Assembly (NCBI GenBank): GCA_017858055.1
Contig: JAFMCA010000016.1
Span: forward strand, 1-51,450
Length of the DNA: 51,450 nucleotides
Source: Flavobacteriaceae bacterium
GTDB taxonomy: Bacteria > Bacteroidota > Bacteroidia > Flavobacteriales > Flavobacteriaceae
Reading direction: 5' to 3'
Positions within the stretch are counted from its first letter, which is position 1, and each line of letters begins with the position of its first letter. This document shows, piece by piece, positions 31,449 through 36,290 of the stretch. Made by a program: the position numbers and the translations under genes. Under the pieces are notes generated by a model. That model had not been told where the DNA came from. It saw only the letters and a list, made by a program, of their open reading frames with translations, and did no database searches.

Positions 31449-32702
31449 TTAAGAATTAAGTTGTATCGAATTTCCTCTCAGGCAACCATAAACGTTCCCT
31501 TTTACCGTACTACCTAGAAACAGAGAGTTTTTTGAAGAGGAATAGATTTGTTCTTTTGTGAATTTTTTATTTCCCTTTGGACTGAAGCAGGTTAGGTCTG
31601 CTGGTGTTCCGATTTGGAAACCTGAATCTTGAATTTTAAAAATGGATTTTCCTCGGGTTAAAAAAGCAATGGTTTTATCCAAGGGGAAATAATTCAAGAG
31701 AATTCCAAAGGCAGCTTCCAATCCTATACTTCCCTCTTTAGAGTGAACAAATTCTAAATCTTTGATTTCTGGATTCAAGGGCTGATGTAAACTTGTTACC
31801 GCATCAATCGTACCATCTAAGAGTCCCTCTCGAAGGGCGCGTTGATCTTTTAAAGAGCGTAAGGGTGGAATAATCTTAAAGGCTGAGTCAAAATCCATTA
31901 AATTTTCTTCAGATGCGTGAAGATGAGCAATGGAGACGGCACAACTGACTTTCAAGCCTTTTTTCTTGGCGGCACGAATTAGGTCAACACTAGCTGCAGC
32001 GGAAATGTAGGGAATATGCATTCTTCCCTGGGTGTATTCTAAAAGCTGAAGGTCTCTGGCTAAAGTGACCGTTTCGGCAATATGAGGAATTCCTTTAAGC
32101 CCTAAATGGGTGCTTACTACACCTTCGTGCATTTGACCGTTAGTATTTAAAGTCCCGTCTAAGGGATAAGCTTGAATTAGACCATCAAAACTCTTAACGT
32201 AGTCTAATGCTATGCGTAAGAGATTCGGGTTTTTCATGACTTGATTAAAATCACCGAAAGCTACCGCGCCAGCTTGATGCATTTCATATAAAGGGGCCAT
32301 GTTTGAGCCTGCAGAAACTTCAGAAAGCGAAGCGCTAATATGAAGGGAGGTGGTGTTCTTTTCACTTTTTTGAAGAAGATGACTTACGTCCGTAAAGGAA
32401 TCCAGTACGGGTTGGGTATCGGGATTCAGTACGATATGAGTAAAGCCACTTTTAGCAGCGGTAAGTAATCCGTTGGCTAATGTTTCTCGTTCTTCGTAAC
32501 CAGGTTCTCCAAAGGAAACACAGGGATCAAACCAACCTGAAGAGAGGTGAAGGTCTTCCAATTCAACTACAGTTGCCTCCGATTCTTCAATGAAATTATC
32601 AATTTGGGTAAGGATACCATCGACAACCAATACGTCCTTTTGTTGATTGTGAAAAGGACTCTTTTCATGAATTAAGGTTGCGTTTTTAAAGAGTATCTTC
32701 AT
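31449..32702 (-). CDS. Dihydroorotase homologue lacking metal ligands (PyrC'-like)
   Basis: This protein (417 residues from ATG 32702) has the amidohydrolase fold of type I dihydroorotases, but the zinc site is gone. The HxH of active enzymes is CVS here (C61, S63, in DPCVSFGEPG), the later His strand reads YISAAAS, and the catalytic DHAP segment reads SLHQP. In other bacteria such inactive homologues (PyrC', PyrX) act as structural partners of aspartate transcarbamoylase. I start at 32702 because a -7 element ends just before 32717, where a longer frame could begin. Confidence 0.85.
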   Translation of the reverse strand: MKILFKNATLIHEKSPFHNQQKDVLVVDGILTQIDNFIEESEATVVELEDLHLSSGWFDPCVSFGEPGYEERETLANGLLTAAKSGFTHIVLNPDTQPVLDSFTDVSHLLQKSEKNTTSLHISASLSEVSAGSNMAPLYEMHQAGAVAFGDFNQVMKNPNLLRIALDYVKSFDGLIQAYPLDGTLNTNGQMHEGVVSTHLGLKGIPHIAETVTLARDLQLLEYTQGRMHIPYISAAASVDLIRAAKKKGLKVSCAVSIAHLHASEENLMDFDSAFKIIPPLRSLKDQRALREGLLDGTIDAVTSLHQPLNPEIKDLEFVHSKEGSIGLEAAFGILLNYFPLDKTIAFLTRGKSIFKIQDSGFQIGTPADLTCFSPKGNKKFTKEQIYSSSKNSLFLGSTVKGNVYGCLRGNSIQLNS

Positions 32703-32718
32703 GTAGTTCTGATCCATG

Positions 32719-32763: not shown

Positions 32764-33618
32764 TTATTCATTAAGTGGAAGAATCGAAAAATGAAAGGTG
32801 TCATTTGTTGATTTTTGAGCCAAGACATTCAGACCGTCCTCACTGACTTGAAGAACTCTCGGATAACCTCCAGTGGTTTGAGCATCTCGCATAAGCACGA
32901 TCAAGTTCCCATTTGGAGTACATTGAACCGTACCGGGAAGAACTGGTGAAGTCCACATAGAAGGAAGGCTGCATTTAAGTTTTTCTTTAAGAATATAGGC
33001 CATTCTAGAATTATGAACCGATAGGGTAAAACCGCTTTCATGAAGATGTTTTTGGGTTTCAGCGTCAAGGAGATTAAACTCAGGACCTTTATAAACCTTA
33101 ATTTCTTTTGTATCAGAGTAAGAATTTTCGAGATGAACACGTGCTCCTTTTTTTTGAATAAATCTGGAGGAATTGTAGGGGATGAGCTTGTTTTTAGTGA
33201 TCACCGTCTCGGAAGTGATTCCCTTGCATTGACTTTGACTTCCAAGAACCACAGGGGCTTGGATTCCTCCTGCAACTGCCATATAGGTTCTGCAGCCCTT
33301 GTGAGCGTTACCCATTTGCAAAAGGTCTTTTTCTTGAACGTGAACAGGTACATTGTTTTCTATTGGAATGCCGTTGATTTTGGGTTCCATATAGGCGCCA
33401 CATAAAACTAGGGTAGTTTCTTGGTGAAATCGAAATTGGGGTCCTTTAAAGCTCATTTCAAGTACAGCACTGTTGGAAGGGTTGTTCAATAATTTATTTG
33501 CCCAATGCATAGCATTTTTATCCATAGCACCGCCAATGGGCACACCCCAGGATTGCAAACCGAATCTACCCTCGTCTTGGATAGAAGTGTATAGCCCGGG
33601 ATGGAGTACCTCAATCAT
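32764..33618 (-). CDS. pxpC: 5-oxoprolinase subunit C (biotin-dependent carboxyltransferase-like)
   Basis: This is one of three subunits of the prokaryotic ATP-dependent 5-oxoprolinase that opens pyroglutamate to glutamate. It belongs to the KipA/urea-amidolyase C-terminal family. Seen blocks are GLYTSIQDEGRFGLQSWGVP at the start, NNPSNSAVLEMSFKGP, and a late VLMRDAQTTGGYPR. The 284 residues fit the family. It overlaps pxpB as ATGA, so the two are translationally coupled. Confidence 0.95.
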   Translation of the reverse strand: MIEVLHPGLYTSIQDEGRFGLQSWGVPIGGAMDKNAMHWANKLLNNPSNSAVLEMSFKGPQFRFHQETTLVLCGAYMEPKINGIPIENNVPVHVQEKDLLQMGNAHKGCRTYMAVAGGIQAPVVLGSQSQCKGITSETVITKNKLIPYNSSRFIQKKGARVHLENSYSDTKEIKVYKGPEFNLLDAETQKHLHESGFTLSVHNSRMAYILKEKLKCSLPSMWTSPVLPGTVQCTPNGNLIVLMRDAQTTGGYPRVLQVSEDGLNVLAQKSTNDTFHFSILPLNE

Positions 33619-34337
33619 ACAGACTTTATTTTATAGGTTTTTGAGGCGATGCCCTTCTCAATGGATTTGTATTCCGATTTTGTAATGGGATAAAATTCAA
33701 TTTGATCTCCGGCTTGAGCAAAACAGGGACTCTTCTTAGAAGGTTGAAAAAGTGGATAAGGAGTTCTTCCAATGATGTGCCATCCTCCAGGACTTTCCTG
33801 TGGATATATTCCTGTTTGTTGTCCCCCAATTCCGATACTGCCCGGGGAAACTTTGGGTGAGGGTTTGGACTTTCTAGGAATGTTCAAAATTTTTGGAAGT
33901 CCATCGAGATAGAGGAATCCAGGAAGAAATCCAATAAAATAGACTAGATAGCAAACACTATGGTGAGTTTTAACGAGTTCTTTTACACTCATTTGTAGTT
34001 TTTGTGCGGAAACTTCTAGGTCAATGCCAAATTCTTTTCCATAATAAACTGGAATTTTCCAAAGTTTCCCTTTTTGAATTTCAAAGGGAGGGATATTCTC
34101 ATAAAGTGATTGTAGGATTTCTTTGAATTTGGAGGGGGAGTTTATTTTATTTTTATAAAAAACCATCAGTGAACAATACCCTTGGGTAATTTGAATGACA
34201 TCCTCTGAATGGAGTAAAATTTCTTTTTTAAAGGCGATAAGTAAACACAAAAGAGCTTCGCTGGGTTCTGAATCCCATTCCAAAAGCACCACTTGGGGTT
34301 GCATTAAATAAAAGCGAAAAGCCAATTTAGGCATCAT
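33615..34337 (-). CDS. pxpB: 5-oxoprolinase subunit B (KipI family)
   Basis: This is the KipI-like subunit of 5-oxoprolinase. The C-terminal half carries the family signature FIGFLPGFLYLDGLP, SKPSPKVSPGSIGIGGQQTGIYP and ESPGGWHIIGRTPY. The 240 residues from ATG 34337 match the family; a second ATG follows at once (34334). The frame is open further up to 34418, but that overlaps pxpA strongly and lacks family similarity, so I reject it. Overlap with pxpA is 11 nt. Confidence 0.94.
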   Translation of the reverse strand: MMPKLAFRFYLMQPQVVLLEWDSEPSEALLCLLIAFKKEILLHSEDVIQITQGYCSLMVFYKNKINSPSKFKEILQSLYENIPPFEIQKGKLWKIPVYYGKEFGIDLEVSAQKLQMSVKELVKTHHSVCYLVYFIGFLPGFLYLDGLPKILNIPRKSKPSPKVSPGSIGIGGQQTGIYPQESPGGWHIIGRTPYPLFQPSKKSPCFAQAGDQIEFYPITKSEYKSIEKGIASKTYKIKSV

Positions 34338-35064
34338 GGATTGAAGTGTTGCTTTCTTGAAATTTTTCCAAGACAAATTTGAGGTTTTGTGATGCATTTG
34401 GATGATCTCCATGCACACAAATGGTGTCTGATTTAACAGAAATCCATTGGTTGCTGATGGTTTTAATGCGTTGGTGCACCACCAAATTATAAAAACGTTC
34501 GTTTAATTGAGCTGTTGATTGAAGTATAGCCCCTTGCTGATTTCTGGGAACGAGGAGTCCATCGTCCTGATAGGCCCGATCTAAAAAAGTTTCTTCCCAG
34601 ATTTCAAAGCCTTTATTTTCTGCGATTTTACCGAATAGACTTCCAGGAGCTGTTATAAAAACAACTGAGGGACAAAGGGATTTAGCTGCGGCAATTAGTG
34701 TTTTAGCAACTTTACGATCCCTGGAGCTGTCGTGATAAAGTGCCCCATGGGGCTTGATATGATGCAGTTTATTTGAATTTAGTTCCCTTAAAAGTGCAAT
34801 TAATTGATTTTCAATGCTTTTCTGGAGTTCTTTAGGCGTTAATTTTAGTGAACGTCTCCCAAAATATTCACGGTCGGGATAGGAGGGATGAGCCCCTATT
34901 CGAACCTGATAAGTTTGTGCAAGTTGAATGGTTTTTTGCATCTCCTCAGGACTTCCTGCATGAGCTCCACAGGCAATATTACAGGCTTGGATAAGGGGCA
35001 TAAGACTTTGATCGTCACCTATTGCCTCTCCGACATCTGCATTTATAGTGTATTTTATGTTCAT
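34327..35064 (-). CDS. pxpA: 5-oxoprolinase subunit A (LamB/YcsF family)
   Basis: This is the LamB/YcsF-type catalytic subunit. Conserved elements are INADVGEAIG, CNIACGAHAGSPEEM, VRIGAHPSYPDREYFGRR, HIKPHGALYHD and ICVHGDHPNA. The ATG at 35064 overlaps the NRAMP-like gene stop as TGATG. A TTG codon just before is not needed. It completes a pxpA-pxpB-pxpC set that recovers glutamate from 5-oxoproline, a by-product of glutamine breakdown. Confidence 0.95.
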   Translation of the reverse strand: MNIKYTINADVGEAIGDDQSLMPLIQACNIACGAHAGSPEEMQKTIQLAQTYQVRIGAHPSYPDREYFGRRSLKLTPKELQKSIENQLIALLRELNSNKLHHIKPHGALYHDSSRDRKVAKTLIAAAKSLCPSVVFITAPGSLFGKIAENKGFEIWEETFLDRAYQDDGLLVPRNQQGAILQSTAQLNERFYNLVVHQRIKTISNQWISVKSDTICVHGDHPNASQNLKFVLEKFQESNTSIHDA

Positions 35065-36290
35065 CAAAAAAGTTGAAATACTGATCCTAGTGATCGCACA
35101 CTTAAAAATAAGGAAATAATCACAATTCCTAAGCCCAAAAGAGTTTGTAAAAGGGTGTATTTGAATTCCCCCAAAACACTTTCCTTATTCATAATCCACA
35201 GTAAAGTGGCAGCGATAATTGGCAATAAAATACCATTAGCAATTTGAGCAAATTGAATGATGAGAATGAATTTTAACTCTGTAGAGGCGAGGAGGGTTCC
35301 AATAAAAATGACGAACGCCCAGCTTCTTCGAAACCTTTTCGATTTTAAGTCGGCTTTCCATCCAAAACAGCCACAAACTACATAGGCTGCAGCTAAAGGG
35401 GCGGTAATGGAACTCGTTATTCCAGCGGCAAAGAGACCTATGGACAATAAAAATTTTGAAGCCTCCCCAAAAACAGGAGCCAATCCTAATGCCAAATCAG
35501 CAGCATTGTTGATTTCCATTACCTCCACACCCGCAGCAGTGACAATGACACTCATGGAAATTATCCCGCCTAAAATTAAGGCGATAACCATATCTTTTAA
35601 AGCAAAGGGCAATGCTGCTTTCGAGGACCATTTTTCTCTAACTAATTCTGTGTGTAAAAATAAATTGTAAGGAACAATAGTTGTTCCTACTAATCCAATA
35701 ATACTTAGCAAACTTCCTTTAGGAGTAGAAAAACGAAAAAGACCAGAAAAAAGTTGGGAAACCGAGGGACCGGTTGCAAAAGCTGTAATTAAAAAAGAGA
35801 GACTCATCAGAATAACTAGAAAAACGAGACTTCGTTCCAGTGCTTTATAGGTTCCGATCCAGAGTAAAAATGCAGCGCTAAATCCAATAAACAAGGGCAG
35901 AATCTTAAGCTTAAAAAAAGAAGTTTTCCATATCAAGGACCCCGTAAGAGTTTCTATACCCAAAGCCGCACCACTAATATTTCCAGCTTCATAGGCCGTA
36001 TTTCCGATCAGTATAGCACTAAAAATAAGGATAAGAATGAATTTCTGTATCCAAGGAGTTTTTATTTCACTTCGAAGGACATCAATAATGCTTTTTTGAC
36101 CGATCAGGCCAATTCGTACAGCCATCCCTTGAAGCACAATAGCAGCAGCGATAGACAATAAGATGGCCCACAATAAATCAAACTCATAGCGAACACCTAC
36201 CAAAGTACAAAGCGTAACTGTACCCGGACCTATAAAAGCCGCGGCGACTAAGGGACCAGGACCGATGTTTTTAAATAGGTTTTTAAACAT
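35064..36290 (-). CDS. NRAMP-family transporter-like protein of the pxp operon, metal ligands lost
   Basis: This 408-residue, ~11-helix membrane protein belongs to the NRAMP (LeuT-fold) family. It aligns well with NRAMP, but three ligands that bind the metal in true NRAMPs differ. The DPGN motif of helix 1 is GPGT (G21, T24), and the helix-6 Met is V206 in TTIVPYNL. It is the first gene of the operon and overlaps pxpA by 1 nt (TGATG). B. subtilis has a similar arrangement (ycsG beside ycsF/kipIA). I infer a substrate other than Mn/Fe, plausibly 5-oxoproline itself. An ordinary metal role cannot be fully excluded. Confidence 0.88.
   Translation of the reverse strand: MFKNLFKNIGPGPLVAAAFIGPGTVTLCTLVGVRYEFDLLWAILLSIAAAIVLQGMAVRIGLIGQKSIIDVLRSEIKTPWIQKFILILIFSAILIGNTAYEAGNISGAALGIETLTGSLIWKTSFFKLKILPLFIGFSAAFLLWIGTYKALERSLVFLVILMSLSFLITAFATGPSVSQLFSGLFRFSTPKGSLLSIIGLVGTTIVPYNLFLHTELVREKWSSKAALPFALKDMVIALILGGIISMSVIVTAAGVEVMEINNAADLALGLAPVFGEASKFLLSIGLFAAGITSSITAPLAAAYVVCGCFGWKADLKSKRFRRSWAFVIFIGTLLASTELKFILIIQFAQIANGILLPIIAATLLWIMNKESVLGEFKYTLLQTLLGLGIVIISLFLSVRSLGSVFQLF

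Follow-up and report, generated by a model that had tools for sequence, protein, structure and literature searches.

5-Oxoproline, a cyclised form of glutamate, is the known substrate of the enzyme PxpABC. Its carriage by proteins of the NRAMP family is already in print for PxpT of Corynebacterium glutamicum and YcsG of Bacillus subtilis, the former being reported in 2026 as genetically required for growth on 5-oxoproline (PMC13274462). According to the same report, the receptors DctP6 and DctP7 of Bordetella pertussis, with the same proposed substrate, lie near an oxoprolinase gene; they belong to a tripartite ATP-independent periplasmic (TRAP) transport system, binding-protein-dependent and unrelated to NRAMP carriers. 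MumT of Acinetobacter is described as of the YcsG kind (PMC10448178) and carries a GPGF motif on transmembrane helix 1 (TM1), which YcsG and PxpT presumably share. The substrate of this GPGF type is disputed between two published lines, one for 5-oxoproline and one for manganese. Here we describe an NRAMP-related carrier with GPGT in that place, encoded in a stretch of 51,450 nucleotides from a Flavobacteriaceae bacterium (contig JAFMCA010000016.1 of assembly GCA_017858055.1; hereafter the window). The carrier resembles PxpT and YcsG in its NRAMP fold, in its pxp neighbours and in its inferred role, and it probably takes up 5-oxoproline, or at most a small lactam acid very like it, to feed the PxpABC encoded just downstream. 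What is new is the GPGT clade, its swapping of partner enzymes and the mutual exclusion of GPGT and GPGF carriers; no report of the clade, of its alternation between PxpABC and HyuAB or of the exclusion was found among the open-licence papers listed. The clade provides an independent test of the disputed substrate: it does not occur together with the GPGF type, and it tracks the marker genes of two 5-oxoprolinase-type enzymes that are unlike each other.

Fold, metal-site residues and clade

Family membership of the carrier is clear from the Pfam Nramp model PF01566 (259.5 bits, cut-off 29.8). With 120.7 of 430 and 85 of 272.5 bits it falls far short of the thresholds of the NCBIfam manganese-transporter models, and it passes narrowly the model Nramp_1, "Nramp family divalent metal transporter" (53.8 of 50 bits). 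An AlphaFold2 model built on 58 sequences, from the window and the loci of the genome_contigs collection, reached a predicted local distance difference test value (pLDDT) of 86.5 and a predicted template modelling score (pTM) of 0.86, with predicted helix breaks at about residues 20-21 and 205-206. The best structural match found by Foldseek, and also the best sequence match in the PDB, is EleNRMT (7qia, TM-score 0.85), an Mg2+ and Mn2+ carrier of Eggerthella lenta, followed by the canonical DraNramp (8e60, 0.82) and BfraNramp (10ky, 0.81) and by an integrative model of YcsG (9a52, 0.80), aligned with 22% identity. Most matches ranked below the NRAMPs are amino-acid carriers of the APC superfamily, and KimA and NKCC1 also appear there; BasC, ApcT and AdiC stand at TM-scores of 0.54-0.70 and are 12-15% identical to the window carrier. 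A search of the PDB with the MumT sequence gave no match.

Residues were compared in an alignment of 74 rows, among them 50 of the GPGT clade, 8 canonical, 6 NRMT-like and 6 of the GPGF type. All eight canonical rows have DPGN on TM1, Met and His on TM6, and Glu at the TM3 position of N104, with Ala at the position of T203 and Leu at that of N352. The window carrier differs from them at every canonical motif, with GPGT for DPGN, VPY for MPH and Asn104 for the TM3 Glu. The first-pass annotation had recognized an NRAMP fold that lacks the metal site, from GPGT (G21, T24) and V206, and this part of it stands; the alignment adds the replacements of Ala by T203, of His by Y208 and of the TM3 Glu by Asn104. 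Within the clade, G21, P22 and G23 are kept in 50/50 rows and T24 in 49, the remaining one having Ser, while T203, T204, V206, Y208, N209, N104, Q349 and N352 are invariant. None of the 50 rows thus has the canonical Asp, Asn, Met, TM6 His or TM3 Glu, whereas the TM10 Gln (Q349) is shared with canonical rows; H213, another point of likeness to canonical Nramp/MntH, is conserved in the window's part of the clade. Position 101 has Glu in 44 rows and Gln in 6; E101 was considered as the counterpart of the metal-site TM3 Glu and rejected, since the alignment puts Asn104 there. Like the window carrier, EleNRMT has Thr at 203 and the NRMT-like rows have Asn at 352; unlike it, EleNRMT and these rows keep Asp on TM1 (DAGG) and Glu on TM3. 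In DraNramp numbering, we take N59, A227 and M230 to be metal-site residues. D56, E134 and H232 are named in that numbering in a study which also describes contact of the TM3 Glu of BfraNramp with Mn2+ (PMC12873925), and mutation of the Asp is reported to impair EleNRMT transport strongly (PMC8806188).

A tree of the 74 rows was built with IQ-TREE, rooted by choice on the canonical rows and read with a long-branch warning. The 50 GPGT rows, which come from Bacteroidota (groups 1, 2a and 2b), haloarchaea and Qipengyuania, form one clade with support 97/97; mapping of the ligand positions on such a tree had been suggested in the first-pass annotation. MumT, five plasmid relatives and 11 Bacteroidota genomes stand for the GPGF type, in place of YcsG and PxpT themselves. 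Its six rows form a separate clade, whose long stem has no settled position on the tree. They share with the GPGT clade the TM1 Gly-Pro-Gly, Asn104, Tyr208 and Asn352 and differ in G203, G206, I209 and G349, so that the signature reads GPGF on TM1 and GGTVGGY on TM6 where the window carrier has GPGT and GTTIVPY. The motif was confirmed in 6/6 tree rows and in 9 of the 11 Bacteroidota loci, L228 and the TM1 of L233 having escaped the script. BLASTP aligns the window carrier with MumT over 105 amino acids at 29% identity, and with the separate clade and the low identity to 9a52 this led us to reject it as a YcsG orthologue; the YcsG of B. subtilis, presented in the first-pass annotation as a similar neighbour, is of another type. 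In published work YcsG (MntG) falls into an Nramp-related group called "G-motif 3", the other groups outside NRMT being called uncharacterised, and the rooted tree given there places the Nramp-related proteins as paraphyletic outside canonical Nramps (PMC12873925). Because of this placement the metal site may have arisen later, and the wording of a site "lost" and a substrate "switch" in the first-pass annotation is not borne out.

Other NRAMP-related types were met on the way. The window's own genome encodes on contig 67 a second NRAMP-like protein (L032:1396-2610), with IGVSH for DPGN and a very long branch. A type with VFGPGS and AGNSAG (L198:3881-5185), in a genome with pxpA and with neither GPGT nor GPGF, is possibly a third carrier type. 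A GPGF-type gene adjoining pxpA contains one in-frame TAG (L229; G091:C1:3436654-3437823).

Partner enzymes across genomes

Within the window's genus the gene was found in 28 of 37 genomes, its own included, with 8 genomes lacking a match and 1 having a distant NRAMP only, many of the genomes being incomplete; the GPGT and GTT-V-YN motifs and the order NRAMP-pxpA are kept in 28/28. The best 80 of 563 loci from genome_contigs, titled flavobacteria or unclassified Bacteroidota and including at least four contigs of the genus loci, have GPGT in 79 cases and GPGS in 1. A same-strand pxpA lies within 6 kb in 76 of these 80, at most 331 nt from the NRAMP match in 75; it is 4.1 kb off in L095, and L100, L108, L110 and L116 have none within 6 kb. 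A count of linkage to pxp genes had been called for in the first-pass annotation.

The partner changes outside this group. Sampling of other phyla was confined to plasmid-collection records. Haloarchaeal plasmids carry the nearest relatives met outside Bacteroidota, with 40-44% identity; of 237 records matched, 60 were listed and 6 examined. There hyuA is directly downstream of the carrier in 6/6 and hyuB comes next in 5/6, the sixth running past the record end; a racemase- or arylmalonate-decarboxylase-like gene follows in 4/6. HyuA/HyuB and PxpABC have no Pfam family in common. Fused HyuA-HyuB proteins of about 1,270 amino acids adjoin group-2 carriers in Bacteroidota (L166:5167-9006, L172:165-3971, L175:173-3970); the nearest solved relative of that in L166 is a 1,288-amino-acid N-methylhydantoinase (7hk5). 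Just upstream of the carrier, five of the six haloarchaeal loci have a CopG/ribbon-helix-helix gene, a candidate sensor of the carried compound (L033:5321-5875, L034:5293-5844, L036:5251-5796, L038:5300-5845, L039:5257-5796).

Co-occurrence was surveyed in 296 Bacteroidota genomes with one marker per enzyme, PF03746 for pxpA and PF02538 for hyuB. A first selection by score took the 62 genomes with hits of 237 bits or more, and G235 (182 bits) was added after motif reading; G306 (GPGS) was counted with the GPGT clade and G219 (FGPGS, with pxpA) excluded as another type. Hits below 170 bits were covered by a pattern search for the TM1 motif; the GPGF type was counted above 400 bits, the next score being 89. 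A marker is present in 63/63 GPGT-clade genomes and 11/11 GPGF-type genomes, that is 74/74, against 27/222 of the others (Fisher 2.5e-47), and by genus in 40/40 against 16/100 (p 2.4e-22), p-values that overstate independence as the genomes are related. Among the ten next-scoring NRAMP hits the marker is found in 3 genomes, G235 being one of them. A search blind to score, with the TM1 motif written as a degenerate DNA pattern, matched 64 of the 296 genomes and recovered exactly the 63 GPGT-clade genes plus one site, in G114, rejected as a carrier since only short open reading frames lie there; the reversed pattern gave no hit among the matches listed.

In Bacteroidota each of the two groups of the clade occurs with both enzyme types. 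Of the 36 genomes of group 1, 35 have pxpA and 1 has a fused HyuA-HyuB, with pxpA within 1.5 kb of the carrier in 31; in group 2 (26 genomes) hyuB is present in 21 and pxpA in 5, with hyuB within 3 kb in 12. On the carrier tree the enzyme type switches at least 6 times (49 labelled rows, L035 unlabelled). Linkage as the sole cause of the co-occurrence was rejected, for group 2a has no enzyme gene in the fetched stretches, yet the genomes of 7/7 of its tree rows have one. Within genera, four genomes of g103 have carrier and enzyme and two have neither, and g44 and g42 have one of each.

The two carrier types exclude each other. No genome has both, where the expected number is 6.9 among genomes with a marker (p 7.6e-6), 7.2 among those with pxpA (p 1.9e-7) and 5.4 by genus (1.5e-4); the relatedness of the genomes affects these p-values as well. 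The 57 pxpA genomes comprise 41 with GPGT, 10 with GPGF and 6 with neither; the corresponding numbers among the 45 hyuB genomes are 22, 2 and 21. In the 11 GPGF genomes pxpA lies within 100 nt of the carrier in 8, 2.5 kb off in 1 and 119 kb off in 1, and one has as its only marker a fused HyuA-HyuB on another contig.

Substrate of the carrier and alternatives

From the computed fold, residues, clade, gene order, co-occurrence and mutual exclusion we infer a substrate, a direction, a binding mode and a coupling site. A secondary carrier of the NRAMP/LeuT fold would bring in 5-oxoproline, whose ring would be opened to glutamate by PxpABC. In BasC, Ala20 and Gly21 of the unwound TM1 segment are reported to hold the substrate carboxylate through their main-chain amides (PMC6472337). 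We propose that the Gly-Pro-Gly break of the window carrier might act likewise, its main-chain amides binding the carboxylate in the manner of the Gly-x-Gly break in APC amino-acid carriers, with the ring amide surrounded by T203, T204, Y208, N209, N104, Q349 and N352, and with E101 possibly involved in coupling. Import of 5-oxoproline is favoured because the carrier follows two unlike enzymes whose common ground is the ATP-driven opening of small lactams, and because GPGT is replaced one for one by the type required for growth of C. glutamicum on 5-oxoproline. The substrate named in the first-pass annotation thus gains support from the 63/63 co-occurrence, the partner switching and the exclusion of the PxpT/YcsG type.

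Several observations weigh against this proposal. No transport assay of a GPGT protein was found among the open-licence papers listed. Carriers without an enzyme gene within the set distances number 4/36 in group 1 and 14/26 in group 2; the Qipengyuania citrea plasmid carrier of group 2b (L035:5965-7275) has no oxoprolinase gene within 6 kb. Conversely, 6 pxpA genomes and 21 hyuB genomes have neither carrier type, and genus g95 is mixed, with 2 genomes having both, 2 hyuB without carrier and 2 neither. Of five pxpA loci in plasmid-collection records of other phyla, only that of Acinetobacter (L190) has an NRAMP-type gene alongside; none is alongside pxpA in L191, L192, L193 or L197, and in Thermus (L193) a TRAP system takes the place. 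The survey counts a single marker per enzyme and leaves the other subunits uncounted. The window PxpC is under the NCBIfam PxpC equivalog cut-off (172.8 of 500 bits), and the substrate of Hyu enzymes is itself uncertain, their relatives including N-methylhydantoinase and caprolactamase. Finally, no DPGN Nramp was found in the window's own genome, which leaves room for a metal role, and a metal has been claimed for the GPGF type: overproduction of YcsG, renamed MntG, is reported to have raised cell Mn, the earlier deletion evidence for 5-oxoproline being possibly polar (PMC10448178), and deletion of MumT to lower Mn in Acinetobacter (PMC5050338; see also PMC11796373). If these effects reflect direct transport, a protein without DPGN may still carry metal.

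An importer of divalent metal (Mn2+) whose site is rearranged, supplying metal to the operon enzymes or to glutamate metabolism, would agree with these reports, with the Gln and the partly kept His common to canonical Nramps, and with current annotation, since all seven GPGT-type plasmid hits among the matches listed are labelled divalent metal transporters. We nevertheless consider it improbable. Five metal-site residues are replaced throughout the clade, while even the Mg2+ carrier NRMT retains the Asp and the TM3 Glu; ZIP and FeoB are encoded in the window's own genome; and a need for metal predicts neither co-occurrence with either of two unlike lactam-opening enzymes nor exclusion of PxpT-type carriers. 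Transport of Mn by relatives, in the first-pass annotation the finding that would undo its proposal, is claimed for the distant GPGF type, and no such claim for the GPGT clade was found among the open-licence papers listed. MumT itself has none of the metal ligands on TM1, TM6 and TM3. By Pfam the mum operon of Acinetobacter baumannii (L190:3701-9905) encodes the NRAMP-related carrier, LamB_YcsF (PxpA), D-glutamate cyclase, a fusion of CT_C_D and CT_A_B (PxpB-PxpC) and a biotin carboxylase with biotinyl domain, whereas it was published as a manganese and urea operon with urea carboxylase and allophanate hydrolase. The Mn effect of MumT is plausibly indirect, because the protein has none of these metal ligands and its operon reads as a 5-oxoprolinase operon.

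The uncertainty about Hyu enzymes, the racemase- or decarboxylase-like gene of the haloarchaeal loci and the low PxpC score would suit a carrier of a related ring compound, be it hydantoin, another lactam acid or D-5-oxoproline, with 5-oxoproline carried in some members only. We find this unlikely too, to a similar degree: the partner in group 1 is nearly always PxpABC, one carrier clade serves both enzyme types, and the two-gene Hyu-type pairs of Sulfolobaceae are predicted 5-oxoprolinases, with extracts reported to show ATP-stimulated activity (PMC6507225). An exporter of excess intracellular 5-oxoproline, or a mere sensor, is hardly credible. 5-Oxoproline does arise spontaneously in cells (PMC13274462) and gene linkage alone does not give direction, but it would be wasteful to export the substrate of a degrading enzyme that consumes ATP and is encoded alongside, and in the same report growth on external 5-oxoproline depends on the GPGF counterpart.

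A broader proposal we hold to be evenly balanced between true and false: the NRAMP superfamily would include at least two distantly related 5-oxoproline carriers, GPGT and GPGF, both with a Gly of a carboxylate-binding Gly-Pro-Gly loop where the metal Asp stands in canonical Nramps; they would replace each other and track enzyme swaps, the Mn effects of MntG and MumT would be indirect and the mum operon would be a 5-oxoproline operon. If carriage of 5-oxoproline holds true, one LeuT-fold family would contain both metal-ion and organic-acid carriers, a clean pair for studies of substrate change, and marine Flavobacteriaceae would gain a defined route for recycling a common breakdown product of glutamate and glutamine.

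The operon and neighbouring genes

The features of the window are collected in Table 1. The coordinates of the carrier frame in the first-pass annotation are correct, the minus strand having been omitted there, and the overlaps it described between consecutive genes were found again: the TGA stop of the NRAMP gene and the ATG of pxpA have one base in common (TGATG), pxpA and pxpB overlap by 11 nt with the pxpB start at 34337, and pxpB and pxpC by 4 nt. The starts of pxpA and pxpB are our choice. All three enzyme genes match their Pfam families, with 257 bits for LamB_YcsF (pxpA), 199 for CT_C_D (pxpB) and 225 for CT_A_B (pxpC); window PxpA passes the NCBIfam cut-offs of two subfamily models and PxpB passes its own. 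The NRAMP gene, said earlier to lead the operon, is likely to do so. A DUF2400 gene on the same strand ends 66 nt upstream of its start, and a scan for promoters and terminators was at background, with 9 promoter-like sites found against 12.9 expected in shuffles.

Table 1. Genes and codons of the carrier locus in the window
Feature	Position	Strand	Remarks
NRAMP-related carrier, GPGT clade, 408 aa, proposed 5-oxoproline importer	35064..36290	minus	
pxpA (LamB/YcsF)	34327..35064	minus	ATG start, 1-nt overlap with NRAMP stop
pxpB (CT_C_D)	33615..34337	minus	chosen start 34337; frame open to GTG at 34418
pxpC (CT_A_B)	32764..33618	minus	
G21-P22-G23-T24 codons	36219..36230	minus	TM1 break; G and T in place of the canonical metal ligands D and N
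E101-A102-G103-N104 codons	35979..35990	minus	TM3; N104 at the Glu position of canonical and NRMT-like rows
T203-T204-I205-V206-P207-Y208 codons	35667..35684	minus	TM6 break; in place of A..MPH
Q349-I350-A351-N352 codons	35235..35246	minus	Q349 as in canonical rows; N352 is Leu there

Elsewhere, the pxpA of a Pseudoalteromonas plasmid (L192:3182-5729) comes immediately after a gene of glycoside hydrolase family 3, and neither pxpB nor pxpC is annotated in its vicinity, which hints at another role for this LamB/YcsF protein. In the window, a dihydroorotase-like gene (31449-32717, minus strand) begins 46 nt past pxpC and does not reach the cut-off of any of the 25 NCBIfam models shown; relatives of it occur in 4 of the 80 named loci (L041, L042, L053 and L067), all contigs of the window's genus.

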